Shown here: piece after piece, positions 39,511-47,963 of the stretch
How the letters are laid out: every line of letters starts with the position of its first letter
Position numbering within the stretch: position 1 is the first letter of the stretch
Assembly: GCF_000425905.1 (NCBI RefSeq)
Contig: NZ_AUEI01000007.1
Location: 62,001-126,000 of the forward strand
DNA from: Lactobacillus psittaci DSM 15354
GTDB taxonomy: Bacteria > Bacillota > Bacilli > Lactobacillales > Lactobacillaceae
DNA: 64,000 nt
Reading direction: 5' to 3'
Made by a program: the position numbers and the translations under genes
The notes under the pieces: generated by a model
Database searches by the model: none
What the model was told of the DNA's origin: nothing
Seen by the model: only the letters and a program-made list of their open reading frames with translations

Positions 39511-40344
39511 ATGGCATTCTTTTTCTCTAAAAAAAATGAAATTCCAAAAGACAAGCAAATTCAAGATTTAGAATTAAGCAAAATTATTCCTAATCGTTAT
39601 CAACCTAGACATGAATTTAGTACTGCTTCAATTGAACAATTAGCTCAAACACTTGATTCTGAAGGCTTACTTCAGCCAATTGTTGTTCGCGAAAAGGGCG
39701 AGAATTTTGAAATTATCGCTGGTGAACGACGTTTTCGTGCAGCTAAAAGTTTAAATTGGAAGACAATCCCAGCTATTGTCCAAAATATGGATGATCAAAA
39801 GGCCGCAAGTTTAGCTTTAATTGAAAATTTGCAACGGGAAAACTTAAATCCAATTGATGAAGCTCATGCTTATGAAGATTTGATGGAGTTAAATGATTTA
39901 ACCCAAACAGCATTAGCAAAAGATATGGGAAAGTCTCAATCTTATATTGCTAACAAGTTGCGTTTATTAAAGTTAAATCCTGAAGTTCAATCTTATTTAG
40001 TTTCTGGTAATTTAACTGCTCGTCATGGTCGGGCAATGTTAGGGCTAAGTAGTGATTTACAAACTAAAGTTTTGCATGAAATTTTGAAAAACAAACTTAG
40101 TGTCAAAGAAACTGAAGCAATTGTGGCCGATCCTGAGGCATATTTCGCTGCAAAAGAGCAACCTAAAGCTAAAGAAAAAGAGAAGAAAAAAGTAGTTCAT
40201 AAAACTTCAGGAGACTTAAAAGTTCAAATTAACACTATTAAGCAAGCAATTAAACTAGCTAAAGATAGTGGAATTGAGGTAAAAGTCCATGAGGAAAACT
40301 CTGAAAAAGAGTATAAGGTAACGATTGAATTAAAGAGAAAGTAG
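39511..40344 (+). CDS. noc: Nucleoid occlusion protein Noc (ParB paralogue)
   Basis: The 277-residue ParB/Spo0J-like protein has the CTP-binding motif GERRFRAAKS, IENLQRENLNP, and a central helix-turn-helix (TQTALAKDMGKSQSYIANKL). The N-terminal MAFFFSKKN is amphipathic, like the membrane-targeting helix of Noc. Position between rsmG and parA is that of noc in Bacillus. Noc blocks division over the nucleoid. RBS GAAAGGAAA precedes the ATG. Confidence 0.9.
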   Translation: MAFFFSKKNEIPKDKQIQDLELSKIIPNRYQPRHEFSTASIEQLAQTLDSEGLLQPIVVREKGENFEIIAGERRFRAAKSLNWKTIPAIVQNMDDQKAASLALIENLQRENLNPIDEAHAYEDLMELNDLTQTALAKDMGKSQSYIANKLRLLKLNPEVQSYLVSGNLTARHGRAMLGLSSDLQTKVLHEILKNKLSVKETEAIVADPEAYFAAKEQPKAKEKEKKKVVHKTSGDLKVQINTIKQAIKLAKDSGIEVKVHEENSEKEYKVTIELKRK

Positions 40345-40355
40345 GATTACAGTTG

Positions 40356-41135
40356 ATGGTTGATATTATTTCAATAGCAAACCAAAAAGGTGGCGTTGGC
40401 AAAACAACCACGACCATCAATTTGGCTGCAAGTATAGCCAATAGAGGCTATCACGTCTTAATTATTGATATTGATCCACAAGGAAATGCCACAAGTGGGC
40501 TAGGGATTGAAAAATCAACAATTGATAAAGATATTTATAATGTATTAGTAGATGAAATTCCGTTAACAGAAACAATTCATCATACAGGTACTAAGAATTT
40601 GGATATTGCACCTGCTACGATTAACTTATCAGGTGCTGAAACCGAATTGATTAGTATGATGGCAAGAGAAACTCGACTAAAGTCTGCTCTTGATCAAGTA
40701 GCTAATGATTATGACTTTGCCTTTATTGATTGCCCACCTTCACTTGGACAACTTTCAATCAATGCTTTTACGGCCAGTGATTCAATTTTAATCCCAGTTC
40801 AAAGTGAATATTATGCCATGGAGGGGTTAAGTCAATTGCTTAACACCATTAGATTGGTTCAAAAACACTTTAATAAGGATTTGGCAGTTGAAGGTGTACT
40901 TTTGACAATGCTAGATGCGCGAACTAATTTAGGGGCTGAAGTAGTTAAGGAAGTTCAATCTTACTTCAGTGAAAAAGTTTATAAAACTATTATCCCTCGT
41001 TTAACTAAGTTAGCTGAAGCGCCAAGCTATGGCCAAGCTATTACAGAATATGATTCCAAATCTCGTGGAGCTAAGCTTTACGATGACCTAGCAAAAGAGG
41101 TGCTAAAAGCTCATGGTAAGAGACTCAAGAAATAA
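40356..41135 (+). CDS. parA: Chromosome partitioning ATPase ParA (Soj)
   Basis: The 259-residue ParA has the deviant Walker A KGGVGKTTTT, the motif DIDPQGNATSG and DCPPSLGQL. It works with ParB in origin segregation and modulates DnaA. ATG at 40356 or TTG at 40353 are both possible with GTAGGA upstream; ATG is given. The gene overlaps parB by 23 bases. Confidence 0.95.
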   Translation: MVDIISIANQKGGVGKTTTTINLAASIANRGYHVLIIDIDPQGNATSGLGIEKSTIDKDIYNVLVDEIPLTETIHHTGTKNLDIAPATINLSGAETELISMMARETRLKSALDQVANDYDFAFIDCPPSLGQLSINAFTASDSILIPVQSEYYAMEGLSQLLNTIRLVQKHFNKDLAVEGVLLTMLDARTNLGAEVVKEVQSYFSEKVYKTIIPRLTKLAEAPSYGQAITEYDSKSRGAKLYDDLAKEVLKAHGKRLKK

Positions 41136-42009
41136 CGAACCTAAGAGAAAAGGCGGTTTGGGCCGAGGAATTGAAGCTTTATTTGAAGATGCCCCCAAGC
41201 CAGAAGTAGAAGAAGTAGAAGAAATTGAAGAATTATCTTTAGCTGATATTCGTCCTAATCCTTATCAACCAAGAAAGAATTTTGATGATAAGAGTTTAAA
41301 GGAATTATCTGATTCTATTAAAGAAAATGGCGTTTTTCAACCAATCATTGTACGTAAAAGTGTAGCTGGTTACGAAATTATTGCTGGTGAAAGAAGATTT
41401 AGAGCTTCTAAATTAGCTAAGAAGAAGACTATTCCTGCAATCATTCGTGATTTTGATGAAGCACAGATGATGGAAGTTGCAGTACTTGAAAACTTGCAAC
41501 GTGAAGACTTATCACCACTTGAAGAAGCTCAAGCTTATGAAATGCTACAAAAGAATTTGGGCTTGACTCAAGCTGAAGTTTCAAAGCGAATGGGTAAATC
41601 TCGCCCATATATTGCCAACTACCTTCGGTTGTTAACTTTACCGCAAAAGGCTAAACGATTATTGCAACATGGCGAGCTTTCAATGGGACAAGCGAGAACT
41701 TTGTTAGGATTAAAGGATAAAGACCAAATTGATCCTTTGGCCAAAAAAGTTGTTAAGGAAGGAATCCCAGTTAGAAAACTTGAAGCCTTAGTTAGTGCAA
41801 TGAATGAAAAGGCTACAACTCAAGTTAAGCCTAAAAATAAGAAATCTGCATTTATTCGTGCTAGTGAACAAAGACTGGCTGATGTATTTGGCAGTAACGT
41901 TAACATTAGTGAAGGTAAGAAGGGTAAGGGTCATTTGTCAATTGACTTTGAATCAACTGAAGATTTGAATCGCATTTTACAAATTTTAGGGATTGATTTA
42001 GATGATTAA
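41113..42009 (+). CDS. parB: Chromosome partitioning protein ParB (Spo0J)
   Basis: The 298-residue ParB CTPase starts with the typical GGLGRGIEALF segment, then an acidic stretch, the NPYQPRKNF motif, GERRFRASK, ENLQREDLSP and the DNA-binding helix-turn-helix (TQAEVSKRMGKSRPYIANYL). It loads at parS near the origin. The ATG lies inside parA. The 3' end overlaps the DUF951 gene by eight bases. Confidence 0.95.
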   Translation: MVRDSRNNEPKRKGGLGRGIEALFEDAPKPEVEEVEEIEELSLADIRPNPYQPRKNFDDKSLKELSDSIKENGVFQPIIVRKSVAGYEIIAGERRFRASKLAKKKTIPAIIRDFDEAQMMEVAVLENLQREDLSPLEEAQAYEMLQKNLGLTQAEVSKRMGKSRPYIANYLRLLTLPQKAKRLLQHGELSMGQARTLLGLKDKDQIDPLAKKVVKEGIPVRKLEALVSAMNEKATTQVKPKNKKSAFIRASEQRLADVFGSNVNISEGKKGKGHLSIDFESTEDLNRILQILGIDLDD

Positions 42010-43396: not shown

Positions 43397-44155
43397 ATGG
43401 ATACAAAAGAAAAGAATTTAAAAAATAGCGCTAAGCAGGCTGAAAATCTGCAAAAAGAAGAAAAGCTTGCTAATTTGACTTCTGAAAGTCCAGCAAAATT
43501 ACGTCAAAATCTTTCGAACAAAAATAGTGATTATATTTTCAGACTTGAAAAAGCACTAATACAAGGTGGAAAGACTGAACAAGAAGCACAAACTGAAACT
43601 GACAAGTTATTAGTGGAAATTATTAGTGCGCAAAAGCAAGGGGTTCCAGCAAGTACCCTTTACCAAAAGTCACCAGTTTTAAAAGCAGACGAGATTTTAC
43701 ACCCAGTAGTAAAGCCTAAAGAACCTGAATTTTGGCAAAAAGCAGTAGATAATGGATTATTATATTTTGCTATCTTTGCTGGGATGGTTGCAATTATGGG
43801 CTTAAGTTCTCCTAAGACGCAAAATTCACAATTAGGAATTTTCACCTTAATAGGTATTTCAGTTGTCTTTGGCTATGTAATGACAGCACTTAATGAAGAA
43901 GTGATTCAAAGTCGTTTACGTGATAGAAAACTTGGCTGGGGCAAGATGATATTTATGCTAATTGGTACAGTTGCTTTAATTTTTGTGGTAATTAGTATCT
44001 TTACTTTGAAAGCAGTACAACCAATTAATCCTGTTTTACCAGTAGCAGTAAACTTGATTTTAGCGATTCTAGCATTTGGTGGTAGATACTTTTTTAGAAA
44101 GCATTATCACATTACTAGCTCAGTTCTTTATCCACAAGGTACTAACAACAAGTAG
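43397..44155 (+). CDS. DUF1129 family membrane protein
   Basis: The 252-residue protein has a charged soluble N-terminal half (about 1-115, Lys/Glu/Gln-rich, likely helical) and four hydrophobic segments after residue 120. This is the layout of DUF1129, often found after ychF in lactobacilli. Function unknown. It starts 11 bases after ychF with AAAGGAGAG, so it ends the par operon. Confidence 0.85.
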   Translation: MDTKEKNLKNSAKQAENLQKEEKLANLTSESPAKLRQNLSNKNSDYIFRLEKALIQGGKTEQEAQTETDKLLVEIISAQKQGVPASTLYQKSPVLKADEILHPVVKPKEPEFWQKAVDNGLLYFAIFAGMVAIMGLSSPKTQNSQLGIFTLIGISVVFGYVMTALNEEVIQSRLRDRKLGWGKMIFMLIGTVALIFVVISIFTLKAVQPINPVLPVAVNLILAILAFGGRYFFRKHYHITSSVLYPQGTNNK

Positions 44156-44167
44156 AATGCTAACTGT

Positions 44168-44196
44168 TTGACATTAATTAAAATAAAGGATATTCT
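44168..44196 (+). promoter_or_regulatory. Strong promoter upstream of a leader and terminator
   Basis: A perfect TTGACA (44168-44173) is followed after 17 bases by TATTCT (44191-44196). Transcription would start near 44203, well before the terminator at 44261-44290 and the ABC exporter genes. Confidence 0.65.
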
Positions 44197-44229
44197 GTTA
44201 GCAAAGTAAATAGTGTGTATTTGAAAAAT

Positions 44230-44262
44230 ATGTTTATTTTTCTTATTAAGCGGATATTTTAG
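44230..44262 (+). CDS. Possible leader peptide MFIFLIKRIF
   Basis: A ten-codon ORF starts with ATG at 44230 (or TTG at 44221, giving 13 codons) and ends in TAG whose last two bases lie in the 5' arm of the terminator. It includes CGG and ATA codons, which are uncommon in neighbouring genes by eye. No good ribosome binding site is seen. A stalled ribosome here would cover the terminator arm, as in ribosome-mediated attenuation. Confidence 0.35.
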   Translation: MFIFLIKRIF

Positions 44263-44290
44263 AAAGAAGGCTTCAATGCCTTCTTTCTTT
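44261..44290 (+). terminator. Terminator or attenuator upstream of the ABC exporter
   Basis: AGAAAGAAGGC and GCCTTCTTTCT pair over 11 bases with loop TTCAAT and end in TT. It could end the par operon or attenuate the exporter genes transcribed from the promoter at 44168. Confidence 0.8.
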
Positions 44291-44363
44291 AGTTTAAAGT
44301 TAAAAAGTATACCGTAGTACATATATTTATATATAAAAAATTATATTGAAAAGAGGATTAGAT

Positions 44364-46091
44364 ATGATTAAGACATTGATGAAGTCAATTCGCCAATATC
44401 GTAAAGAGTCAATTCTTTCTCCGATATTTGTATCTGTTGAAGTTTTCATCGAAATGTTTATTCCATATATAATGTCATGGTTAATTGATGATGGCATTAT
44501 GAAAGGGAATACTTCATTAATAACTAAATTAGGGCTATTTTTATTATTAATGGCTTTTATTTCATTAATGTTTGGGATTGGTGCAAGTTACTTTTCAGCT
44601 AAAGCAGCAGCGGGTTTTGCGGCAAATTTACGAAAAGATATGTTTTTCAACACCCAAAATTTCTCTTTTGAAAATATAGATAAATTTTCAAGCTCAAGTT
44701 TAGTAACTCGTTTGACAACAGATATTAATAACATTCAATTGGCATATCAGATGTTAATTAGAATTGCTGTTAGAGCACCACTTATGTTGATTGTTTCAAT
44801 TGTCATGGCCTTTGTTGTCAATGCCAAACTTGCAATTCAATTTGTAATTATGGCACCAATTATGGCTATTTTATTAGCCTTAATTATTAAGAATGCCTTT
44901 CCATTCTTCCCCAAGATTTTTAAAAACTATGATAAGTTGAATCAAACTGTTCGTGAAAATGTGCGTGGGATTAGGGAAGTTAAGACTTATGTGCATGAAC
45001 AAGAACAAATTGATAAATTTTCTAAATCATCAAATATGATTTATAAGCTATTTTCTGGTGCACAAAAGATTATTGCATTGAATGCCCCAGTTATGATGTT
45101 GCTATTGAATGGCTCAATGCTACTTCTTTCATGGTTTGGTGCTAAGTTAATTGTAGGTCATGAAATGCAAACTGGTCAGCTAGTGTCAATGTTTTCATAT
45201 TCTAATTCAGTGCTCTTTAGTTTAATGATTTTGTCTATGATTTTTACCCAATTAACAATTTCACAAGCTAGTGGTAAGAGAATTACTGAAGTAATTAATG
45301 AACAATCTACTATCACCCAGCCAGCTAAGCATCCAGTAACTGACTTAAACAATGGTGATATTGTCTTTGATCATGCTAACTTTAAATATGAAAAAGATAG
45401 TGATGTTTTAGCCTTATCTGATATTAATTTACATATTCATTCAGGTGAGACAATTGGGATTATTGGAGAAACCGGTTCTTCAAAATCTACTTTAGTAGCG
45501 ATGATTCCACGACTTTATGATGTCTCTGGTGGTGCTGTAAGAGTTGCTGGTCACAACGTTCGTTCATATGATTTAAAGACCTTGCGTGATAATGTGGCCA
45601 TGGTTTTACAAAACAATGTTTTATTCTCTGGCACTATCAAAGATAACTTAAGATGGGGTAATGAAAATGCGAGTGATGAAGAAATTATTGCCGCAGCTAA
45701 GGTTGCCCATGCAGATGGGTTTATCAACGAATTTCCAGATGGCTACGATACTATGATTGAACAAGGTGGTAACAACGTCTCTGGTGGTCAAAAGCAAAGA
45801 ATTACAATTGCGCGTGCCTTATTAAAGAAGCCAAAGATCTTAATTTTGGATGATTCGACTTCAGCTGTTGATACTAAAACTGAAAAAGAAATTCGCTTAG
45901 CTTTGAAGCGCGATATGCCAAATACTACTAAGATTATCATTTCGCAAAGAATTGTTTCAATTAAAGATGCTGATCGAATTATTGTGATGAATCATGGGCG
46001 AATCGAAGATATCGGCACTCACGACGAACTTATTGAACGTAACGATTTATATAGTTCACTTAACAAGTATCAATCTGAAAAAGAAAAGTAG
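44364..46091 (+). CDS. Heterodimeric ABC exporter, subunit with degenerate ATP site
   Basis: The 575-residue half-transporter has a six-helix membrane domain followed by an ATPase domain. Walker A is GETGSSKST and the signature NVSGGQKQR is canonical. After Walker B, however, ILDDSTSAVD has Asp where the catalytic Glu is expected, and the switch His is Gln (ISQRI). This is the non-catalytic-site subunit of BmrCD/LmrCD/TM287-288 type exporters. ATG at 44364 follows AAGAGGA. The partner follows eight bases after the stop. Confidence 0.92.
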   Translation: MIKTLMKSIRQYRKESILSPIFVSVEVFIEMFIPYIMSWLIDDGIMKGNTSLITKLGLFLLLMAFISLMFGIGASYFSAKAAAGFAANLRKDMFFNTQNFSFENIDKFSSSSLVTRLTTDINNIQLAYQMLIRIAVRAPLMLIVSIVMAFVVNAKLAIQFVIMAPIMAILLALIIKNAFPFFPKIFKNYDKLNQTVRENVRGIREVKTYVHEQEQIDKFSKSSNMIYKLFSGAQKIIALNAPVMMLLLNGSMLLLSWFGAKLIVGHEMQTGQLVSMFSYSNSVLFSLMILSMIFTQLTISQASGKRITEVINEQSTITQPAKHPVTDLNNGDIVFDHANFKYEKDSDVLALSDINLHIHSGETIGIIGETGSSKSTLVAMIPRLYDVSGGAVRVAGHNVRSYDLKTLRDNVAMVLQNNVLFSGTIKDNLRWGNENASDEEIIAAAKVAHADGFINEFPDGYDTMIEQGGNNVSGGQKQRITIARALLKKPKILILDDSTSAVDTKTEKEIRLALKRDMPNTTKIIISQRIVSIKDADRIIVMNHGRIEDIGTHDELIERNDLYSSLNKYQSEKEK

Positions 46092-46099
46092 GTGAGTAG

Positions 46100-47920
46100 A
46101 TGAAAAAACAAAATCAAAAGCATACATTTTGGAGATTACTTAAGTATATTGTAAAAACTGGACCGGTAGCTTTTCCATTGGCAATTATTGGGATTATTGT
46201 CAGTGCCTTTAGTACAGTTTATGGTTCATTATTTATTCAACAATTAATTGATAAATATATTACGCCTTTACTTAAGCAGACTAATCCTAATTTCACTCCT
46301 TTATTTAATGCGCTTGGCTTCTTGGCCTTAGTTTACTTAATTGGGGTAGTTACAACGTATCTCTACACTTTATTGATGATGGTATTAGCACAAAAAGTGC
46401 AAAAGAGTATCAGAGATAAGATGTTTAAGCATATGCAATATCTACCAATTGCATATTTTGATCAAAATGAATATGGCGACATTATGTCTCGCTATACTAA
46501 TGATATTGATACCTTGATGCAGATGATTTCACAGTCAATACCTCAATTTGTGAGTTCAACTTTGACTATTGTTTTCGTATTAGGTTCAATGTTAGTTTTA
46601 AGTTGGCAATTAACGATTTTGACTTTGATTATCTTTTTATTATCAGTTGGTATTGTTCGCTACTTAACCAAAAAATCTGGCTATTATTTTAAGTTGCAAC
46701 AAGAAAAATTAGGTGCAATGAATGGTTATAATGAGGAAATGCTCAGCGGGTTAAAGGTAATTAAGGTCTTTAGTCATGAACCATACGTTAAGAACGATTT
46801 TGATAAATACAATGATGAATTGCGTCAAGCATCTGGTTTGGCCAATGTTTATGCGACAGTGCTCTTCCCAATTATGGGTAATGTTGGAAATATCTCATAC
46901 GTTTTAATTGCTCTAATTGGTGGATTAGGTGCAATTAATGGCTTTTTCCCATTAACTTTAGGTGCGATTGCTTCATTCCTACAACTATCACGTTCATTCA
47001 GTATGCCAATTGCTCAAATTTCACAACAATTAAACTCAATTGTAATGGCCATGGCTGGTGCTAACCGAATTTTCAATGTGCTTGATAAAACAGCTGAAGT
47101 TGATGCAGGCACAGTTACTATTACTCATAAAGTTGGTGTCAAAAATGCTTGGAACTGGCGCAAGGCAAATAATGAATTAGTTCCAGTTAAGGGCCATATC
47201 AAGTTTGATCATGTTGATTTTGGCTATGTTCCAAATAAACAAATTCTTTATGATATTAACATTGATGCTAAACCTGGTATGAAAGTTGCCTTAGTTGGTG
47301 AAACCGGTGCTGGTAAAACTACTATTTCTAATATGATTAATCGTTTTTATGAAATAAATAGTGGTAGTATTACCTACGATGGTATCGATGTTAAAGATAT
47401 CAAGAAAGATGATTTGCGTAAGTCCGTTGCAATTGTTTTGCAGGATACGCACATGTTTACTGGGACAATCATGGATAATATTCGCTTTGGTAATCCAGAT
47501 GCTAGTGACGATGAAGTCTACCAAGCAGCGCGACTTGCTCATGCTGATGAATTTATTCATGAGCTTGATAATGGCTATCAAACGGTAATTGATGGCTCAG
47601 GTGGTGACTTATCACAAGGACAAATGCAGTTATTATCAATTGCGAGAGCGATGATTGCTGATCGGCCAGTGATGATTTTGGATGAAGCTACTTCAAGTAT
47701 CGATACAAGAACTGAAAGAATTATCCAAAAAGGTATGGATAATTTGTTAGCTGGTAGAACTAGCTTTGTGATAGCGCACCGTTTATCTACGATTGTTAAC
47801 TCTGATTTGATTTGTGTTCTTGATCACGGACATATTATCGAAAAAGGGTCTCATGAAGAATTATTAGCTAAAAAAGGTTACTATTACGAGTTATACACTG
47901 GTAAAAAGGAAATCGAATAA
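46100..47920 (+). CDS. Heterodimeric ABC exporter, catalytic subunit
   Basis: The 606-residue half-transporter has Walker A GETGAGKTT, Walker B MILDEATSSID with the catalytic Glu, and the switch His in IAHRL. Its own signature is the variant LSQGQMQ, which would face the degenerate site of the partner. Together the two genes encode a BmrCD/LmrCD-like multidrug or peptide exporter. A two-component system follows. It ends in a perfect palindromic terminator. Confidence 0.93.
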   Translation: MKKQNQKHTFWRLLKYIVKTGPVAFPLAIIGIIVSAFSTVYGSLFIQQLIDKYITPLLKQTNPNFTPLFNALGFLALVYLIGVVTTYLYTLLMMVLAQKVQKSIRDKMFKHMQYLPIAYFDQNEYGDIMSRYTNDIDTLMQMISQSIPQFVSSTLTIVFVLGSMLVLSWQLTILTLIIFLLSVGIVRYLTKKSGYYFKLQQEKLGAMNGYNEEMLSGLKVIKVFSHEPYVKNDFDKYNDELRQASGLANVYATVLFPIMGNVGNISYVLIALIGGLGAINGFFPLTLGAIASFLQLSRSFSMPIAQISQQLNSIVMAMAGANRIFNVLDKTAEVDAGTVTITHKVGVKNAWNWRKANNELVPVKGHIKFDHVDFGYVPNKQILYDINIDAKPGMKVALVGETGAGKTTISNMINRFYEINSGSITYDGIDVKDIKKDDLRKSVAIVLQDTHMFTGTIMDNIRFGNPDASDDEVYQAARLAHADEFIHELDNGYQTVIDGSGGDLSQGQMQLLSIARAMIADRPVMILDEATSSIDTRTERIIQKGMDNLLAGRTSFVIAHRLSTIVNSDLICVLDHGHIIEKGSHEELLAKKGYYYELYTGKKEIE

Positions 47921-47933
47921 TCTTAAGAATATG

Positions 47934-47963
47934 AAAAGAGCATGCAATATTGCATGCTCTTTT
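47934..47963. terminator. Palindromic terminator after the ABC exporter genes
   Basis: AAAAGAGCATGCAAT and ATTGCATGCTCTTTT form a perfect 30-base palindrome ending in TTTT. Confidence 0.88.

Follow-up and report, generated by a model that had tools for sequence, protein, structure and literature searches.

What sets the expression of an ATP-binding cassette (ABC) exporter whose transcript appears to meet an intrinsic terminator almost as soon as it is begun? This question is raised by a locus of Lactobacillus psittaci DSM 15354 that lies within a stretch of 64,000 nucleotides (nt) (contig NZ_AUEI01000007.1, positions 62,001 to 126,000), hereafter the window; the features described below are on its forward (+) strand, and their coordinates are those of the window. 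An earlier note on this DNA had proposed that the exporter is controlled by ribosome stalling on a leader peptide, as in bmrCD of Bacillus subtilis. The comparisons presented here suggest instead that a terminator close to the promoter throttles the exporter and that no leader peptide is involved, an arrangement like that of patAB in Streptococcus pneumoniae. We regard this as the best account of the locus and assign it a probability of roughly 0.55.

Probable promoter and terminator ahead of the exporter

The predicted unit begins with a promoter, P1 (44168..44196), of the form TTGACA-N17-TATTCT, which lies downstream of a gene with a DUF1129 domain match (43397..44155). P1 had been described as perfect, and it is indeed present with a 17-base spacing and a perfect -35 hexamer (TTGACA, 44168-44173), but its -10 hexamer (TATTCT, 44191-44196) agrees at only 4 of 6 positions, for a total of 10 of 12. 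P1 aligns with a promoter-like site, TTGACT-N17-TAATCT, in Lactobacillus jensenii DSM 20557 (G022), the only close relative found, whose exporter is 97% identical as compared to 67-74% in all other relatives. Moreover, the place and the spacing of P1 are common to most of the genus regions considered below. Promoter-like sites as a class were not enriched in the 40-50 kb part of the window (35 observed versus 38.9 expected). With the start of transcription deduced from the position of the -10, the leader would extend from 44203 to 44260, where it meets an intrinsic terminator hairpin (44261..44288) with a T-rich tail. The stem has the 11 base pairs (bp) previously attributed to it, five of them G-C, and a 6-base loop; its folding energy of -16.7 kcal/mol was equaled by none of 200 shuffled sequences. 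The distance from the end of the stem to the exporter ATG (44364) is 75 nt, rather than the 70 reported, and includes the exporter ribosome-binding site AGAGGA (44352..44357; -9.0 kcal/mol). By sequence, therefore, an intrinsic terminator is positioned between promoter and exporter start, as it is in a patAB-type leader.

To place this arrangement in a wider context, we compared genomes of the genus. Matches to the exporter with at least 67% identity over most of the protein were identified in 71 of 75 genomes, including that of the window; the four genomes without such a match (G039, G040, G047, and G060) are 57-85% complete. In all 71 loci a DUF1129 gene lies directly upstream of the exporter, and in 69 of them a gene that we take to be ychF is also visible, the view of the other two (L005 and L042) being limited by contig ends. 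A relaxed finder detected a hairpin with a T-run at this place in 68 of the 71 regions, and in none of these was it matched by more than 1 of 100 shuffles. The finder missed L039, L055, and L071 (a strict finder missed six regions), and a hairpin is visible by eye in L039 and L055. Many regions share a common promoter form after the DUF1129 stop, (T/G)TGCTT-N17-TATACT; the hairpin starts 13-19 nt after the -10 in 47 of 64 regions, and the exporter ribosome site then follows. The best promoter upstream of the hairpin outscored the best one downstream in 61 of the 65 strict-hairpin regions, the exceptions being L008 (a tie), L042, L057, and L067. Scores were 17.9 versus 13.0 in the window and 16.8 versus 11.4 in L. 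jensenii, where the downstream site is at another place. The leader of these two species exceeds that of 62 of 64 regions in length and would represent a longer version of the genus unit.

Whether the hairpin is maintained as RNA was evaluated in 24 alignable hairpins that were hand-picked by eye. The window, L003, L009, L056, and L067-L070, which are unrelated in sequence, were left out, as were many near-duplicates; the hairpins of the window and L. jensenii differ in sequence from the 24 and are not part of them. Among stem cells, which are not independent given that the species are related, 99.0% of 306 pair. Changes on both sides were observed in 8 of 13 stem pairs (1 of 500 shuffles), and the covariation score was attained by none of 500 shuffles, suggesting that stem changes in these hairpins are largely compensatory. 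Wobble cells comprised 21 G-U and 2 U-G as compared to 1 A-C. Since such wobble pairs would be mismatches on the other strand, the coding-strand RNA appears to be the selected form of the hairpin, and selection as RNA, as for a patAB-type hairpin, is what these 24 relatives point to. The palindrome was also considered as a DNA operator, which is thought unlikely because the wobble pairs are strand-biased.

Collectively, these observations suggest how the unit may operate. P1 would start transcription just past the DUF1129 gene, RNA polymerase would soon reach the intrinsic terminator, and only those polymerases that read through would transcribe the two-gene exporter. Because polymerase would have to read through, the terminator would hold exporter expression low and would also stop read-through from the upstream operon. 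We infer that the exporter is transcribed mainly from P1, that transcription terminates at the hairpin in vivo, and that the exporter level is set by read-through. The parts of the patAB report drawn on here describe a predicted start site 67 nt upstream of the gene, shortly followed by a Rho-independent terminator, and terminator mutations that raised expression and reporter read-through (PMC4319486). The likeness to the window is one of layout rather than of PatA orthology, comprising a heterodimeric ABC exporter, a terminator near the start, and, in those parts of the report, no described leader peptide (PMC4319486). In the window, which is compared with patAB by sequence, no antiterminator is predicted.

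Several observations weigh against this account. One region (L071) is without a hairpin, and in L067 a hairpin is present but a 49-nt gap leaves no room for a promoter before it. The 17-base spacing of 60 of the 64 upstream promoter picks was obtained with a matrix that we built ourselves and that favors this spacing, and, many regions being close relatives, the 57 picks with that spacing that entered dereplication were reduced to 21. Singly, the picks are weak: just 31 of 64 were matched by 5 or fewer of 100 shuffles, those of a close-knit group (L051-L054 and L060-L064) are at chance level (41-75 of 100 shuffles), and those of L005, L008, and L012 are also poor (49-54 of 100). Among the 24 alignable hairpins, the count of further pair types was not above shuffles (220 of 500). 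Only 3 of 20 exporter orthologs examined at the level of the order clearly have a promoter-terminator unit, whereas 14 are without a hairpin. Finally, re-pairing of the patAB stem lowered the reporter in one of three attempts in the portion of that report considered here (PMC4319486).

The micro-ORF and alternative accounts

A terminator at this place may merely mark the end of an upstream operon, as the earlier note had itself cautioned. In this account the terminator would close the ychF-DUF1129 operon, with the exporter promoter located after the terminator and the upstream promoter accidental or weak. A family-level DUF1129 match was identified in 60 of 61 genomes, and 20 loci from other genera of the Lactobacillaceae were compared. 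A terminator-like hairpin lies within 170 nt of the DUF1129 stop in 15 of these 20, and no match to the exporter was found in the stretch compared for 19 of the 20; a terminator after DUF1129 is thus common without the exporter, which also counts against the patAB-like account. However, the predicted promoter mostly lies elsewhere in these genera. The best promoter-like site follows the hairpin in 13 of the 15 loci, 8 of these 13 hairpins being too near the stop for a preceding promoter (exceptions are L186, 13.6 versus 12.2, and L187, 11.5 versus 11.4), whereas in the window it precedes the hairpin. The one locus with an exporter match, L170, has a promoter-like site directly before a weak hairpin, seen by eye and missed by the automated finder. 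Among four genomes without the exporter, considered as a control for the terminator, a partial DUF1129 match was found in one. Within the window, the interval after the stem does hold a promoter-like site (44300-44327; 9 of 12 positions), and downstream promoters score higher in L042 and L057 and tie in L008. Nonetheless, the downstream site of the window scores below P1, its hexamers are altered in L. jensenii, and upstream promoters prevail in nearly all regions. The caution in the earlier note is thus borne out in part, but we consider an operon-end terminator with a downstream exporter promoter unlikely.

The leader-peptide proposal holds that a ribosome that stalls in the final codons of a micro open reading frame (micro-ORF) covers the terminator 5' arm, allowing polymerase to pass. 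The ten-codon micro-ORF (MFIFLIKRIF; 44230..44262) is present as described, with its ATG at 44230 and a TAG (44260-44262) that overlaps the start of the stem by two bases, and the 5' arm could in principle be covered by a ribosome positioned at this TAG. Its last codons include CGG and ATA, both rare in 44 ORFs of the window (1.7 and 6.0 per 1000, respectively), and L. jensenii shares all of its final 15 nt (AAG CGG ATA TTT TAG; 15 of 15) and has an 11-codon frame that begins with TTG and terminates at this TAG. In addition, 15 of 64 regions, including the window, contain an ATG frame of at least four codons that extends to the stem. Precedents exist in B. subtilis, as far as the parts of the reports used here extend, in bmrB (PMC4191407) and vmlR (PMC9226507).

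Alignment of orthologous leaders, the check proposed in the earlier note, indicates however that the micro-ORF is not conserved. In L. jensenii the ATG is missing at the aligned place and 5 nt are deleted, and, the final 15 nt excepted, the leader (72% identity) and the micro-ORF (75%, five gaps; compared as 44229-44261, one base off) are the least-kept pieces of the exporter block. In 60 of 64 regions the inferred start is fewer than 33 nt from the stem, the remainder being the window, L. jensenii, L018, and L019. Start codons occur in that interval in 38 of 64 regions, but the ATG frames that reach the stem differ in frame and in length (4-24 codons; the 24-codon frames of L013, L014, and L020 run through the entire hairpin) and, that of the window excepted, start 1-14 nt from the inferred start. 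Retention of the final 15 nt does not require coding, because they coincide in part with one side of a lower stem that flanks the terminator (44250..44315) and could form only after read-through; it pairs 44250-44260 with 44304-44310 and 44312-44315, and the opposite strand (44304-44315) is also nearly unchanged in L. jensenii.

Signals for translation are also poor, as had been suspected. Ribosome-site energies were -2.5, -1.2, and -1.9 kcal/mol for the ATG and two in-frame codons that could extend the micro-ORF in the 5' direction (GTG 44215 and TTG 44221), versus -9.0 kcal/mol for the exporter, although 8 of 54 window ORFs (range, -12.4 to +1.4) are weaker than -2.5. The ATG further sits in the loop of a small hairpin (44223..44242) that folds better than all of 200 shuffles (z -5.7); its weaker counterpart in L. 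jensenii is not clearly above chance (z -1.45, 20 of 200 shuffles as good). Comparable ORFs are common in shuffled leaders with the stem kept: 279 of 5000 (5.6%) yielded an ATG ORF of at least 10 codons whose end falls no more than 3 nt from where the stem begins, and 765 of 5000 did so when ATG, GTG, or TTG starts were allowed.

No antiterminator was predicted in the window or in L. jensenii, where minimum-energy folds put the leader stem beside the terminator. When the terminator 3' arm was forbidden to pair, only the separate 5' stem was left in the window (-8.1 versus -25.2 kcal/mol), and in L. jensenii a weak pairing to bases downstream of the T-run was gained (-13.7 versus -25.4 kcal/mol). 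In the published part considered here, bmrB is an ORF of 162 bp that must be translated and that holds a predicted terminator, antiterminator, and anti-antiterminator (PMC4191407). The window resembles bmrB/bmrCD in having a promoter, a terminator leader, and a heterodimeric exporter, but its ORF comprises ten codons, has a poor ribosome site, and is not conserved, and no antiterminator is predicted; it departs from a bmrB-type leader in the ribosome site of the leader ORF, in the placement of that ORF relative to the hairpin, and in the exclusive antiterminator. Similarly, vmlR is an antibiotic-resistance gene with a terminator in its leader, but the part of the report used here describes control of termination through an upstream ORF (uORF) and antiterminator folding (PMC9226507). 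These observations suggest that the micro-ORF is probably accidental and not functional and make control by ribosome stalling very improbable. Of the attenuator originally envisaged, the order of promoter, terminator, and exporter stands and is shared by most of the genus relatives compared, while the leader peptide is unsupported.

A third alternative is that the leader is a regulated attenuator in which a protein, small molecule, or small RNA relieves termination under stress. Consistent with this, most genus regions retain the unit, which is also found in another gene context, the stem of the hand-picked alignable hairpins retains much sequence beyond pairing, and both of two tested orthologs without the unit have a MarR-like gene beside the exporter. 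However, there would be little room for a sensor, since in 51 of 64 regions the stretch ahead of the hairpin is shorter than 20 nt. Although the window leader taken as a whole is more stably folded than its shuffles (z -5.0), no such difference is seen for the portion that precedes the terminator (z -1.3, equaled by 21 of 200 shuffles). Searches of Rfam returned nothing above the gathering score in the window leader or in the leaders of 3 other Lactobacillus, 6 Streptococcus, Abiotrophia, and 3 further loci; in the flanks of these loci only rRNA and tRNA genes were matched, and a loose threshold yielded weak matches below the gathering score for the window and L087. No inducer turned up in our searches, and none of the titles and abstract openings from an open library (Lactobacillus leaders, term-seq, and start sites; Enterococcus faecalis attenuation), nor those of the best 8 of 13 matches for L. 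jensenii multidrug ABC transporters, describes this leader. Regulated attenuation thus appears rather unlikely. A broader version, which we consider doubtful, is that the Lactobacillales harbor a recurring class of exporter-linked attenuators with an intrinsic terminator hairpin almost at the 5' end of the RNA, in which read-through is set by an undescribed factor that replaces the MarR-type regulator seen next to this exporter in relatives. Such a factor would have to act on the hairpin or the early elongation complex because there would be no space for a leader peptide or antiterminator.

The exporter, its surroundings, and its relatives

Both exporter subunits (44364..46091 and 46100..47920) were identified as ABC exporters by domain and structure matches. 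Among solved chains, subunit 1 is closest to 3qf4 chain A (E 4.8e-137), which partners TM_0288 and which we take to be TM287; YheI, presumably BmrC, is more distant (E 3.1e-79). Subunit 2 matched 4f4c (pgp-1; 5.2e-133) and TM_0288 (6.5e-130), and no BmrD chain was among the best 60 of its 137 structure matches. The exporter had been called BmrCD-like; it is a heterodimeric ABC exporter, but looks like one of the TM287/288 type rather than a BmrCD ortholog.

Upstream of the exporter are ychF and then the DUF1129 gene. Farther upstream, a putative ParA-like protein flanked by two ParB-like proteins was noted by eye (39511-42009). Downstream are a response regulator and a histidine kinase whose best models, VanR and VanS, scored below their cut-offs. 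Between the exporter and this two-component pair is a 13-bp symmetric, two-way terminator-like repeat (47934-47963).

Identity to L. jensenii is 85-99% in 200-base bins from 44200 to ~48000, as compared to 85% in ychF, 63% in DUF1129, and ~80% at the start of the response regulator. The identity of this block relative to DUF1129 and ychF suggests that the exporter was exchanged with its leader by recombination. A mobile-repeat origin of the leader was rejected, as its own genome held just one match at E 0.001 or better and a search of the genus returned matches at length only in L. jensenii.

Outside the genus, 43 matches to the exporter were identified within the order, and 20 of their loci were examined. 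Three of these (L199, L200, and L201) have a promoter, 8-12 nt, a terminator, and the exporter in a different gene context. The 14 loci without a hairpin (L202, L209, and similar loci) have an ORF of at least 90 codons ending within 60 nt of, or overlapping, the exporter start, and the two such ORFs tested were both MarR-like. Separately, a conserved hairpin, CCCTACAG-N5-CTGTCAGGG, was observed ~70-160 nt before the exporter homolog in Streptococcus (L086, L087, L088, L089, L092, and L117) and Abiotrophia (L131), ~16-18 nt after a -10-like box as judged by eye. It occurs as one copy in each of four genomes searched, has no Rfam match above the gathering score, and was equaled in folding by 1 (L086), 0 (L087), and 102 (L131) of 200 shuffles.

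Implications for Lactobacillus

The claim of a leader peptide is thereby replaced by a testable one, namely that in most Lactobacillus species compared this multidrug-type exporter appears to lie behind a promoter-proximal terminator. If this is true, the position of the exporter behind the terminator means that the basal drug tolerance of these commensals may depend on terminator read-through, as published for patAB.
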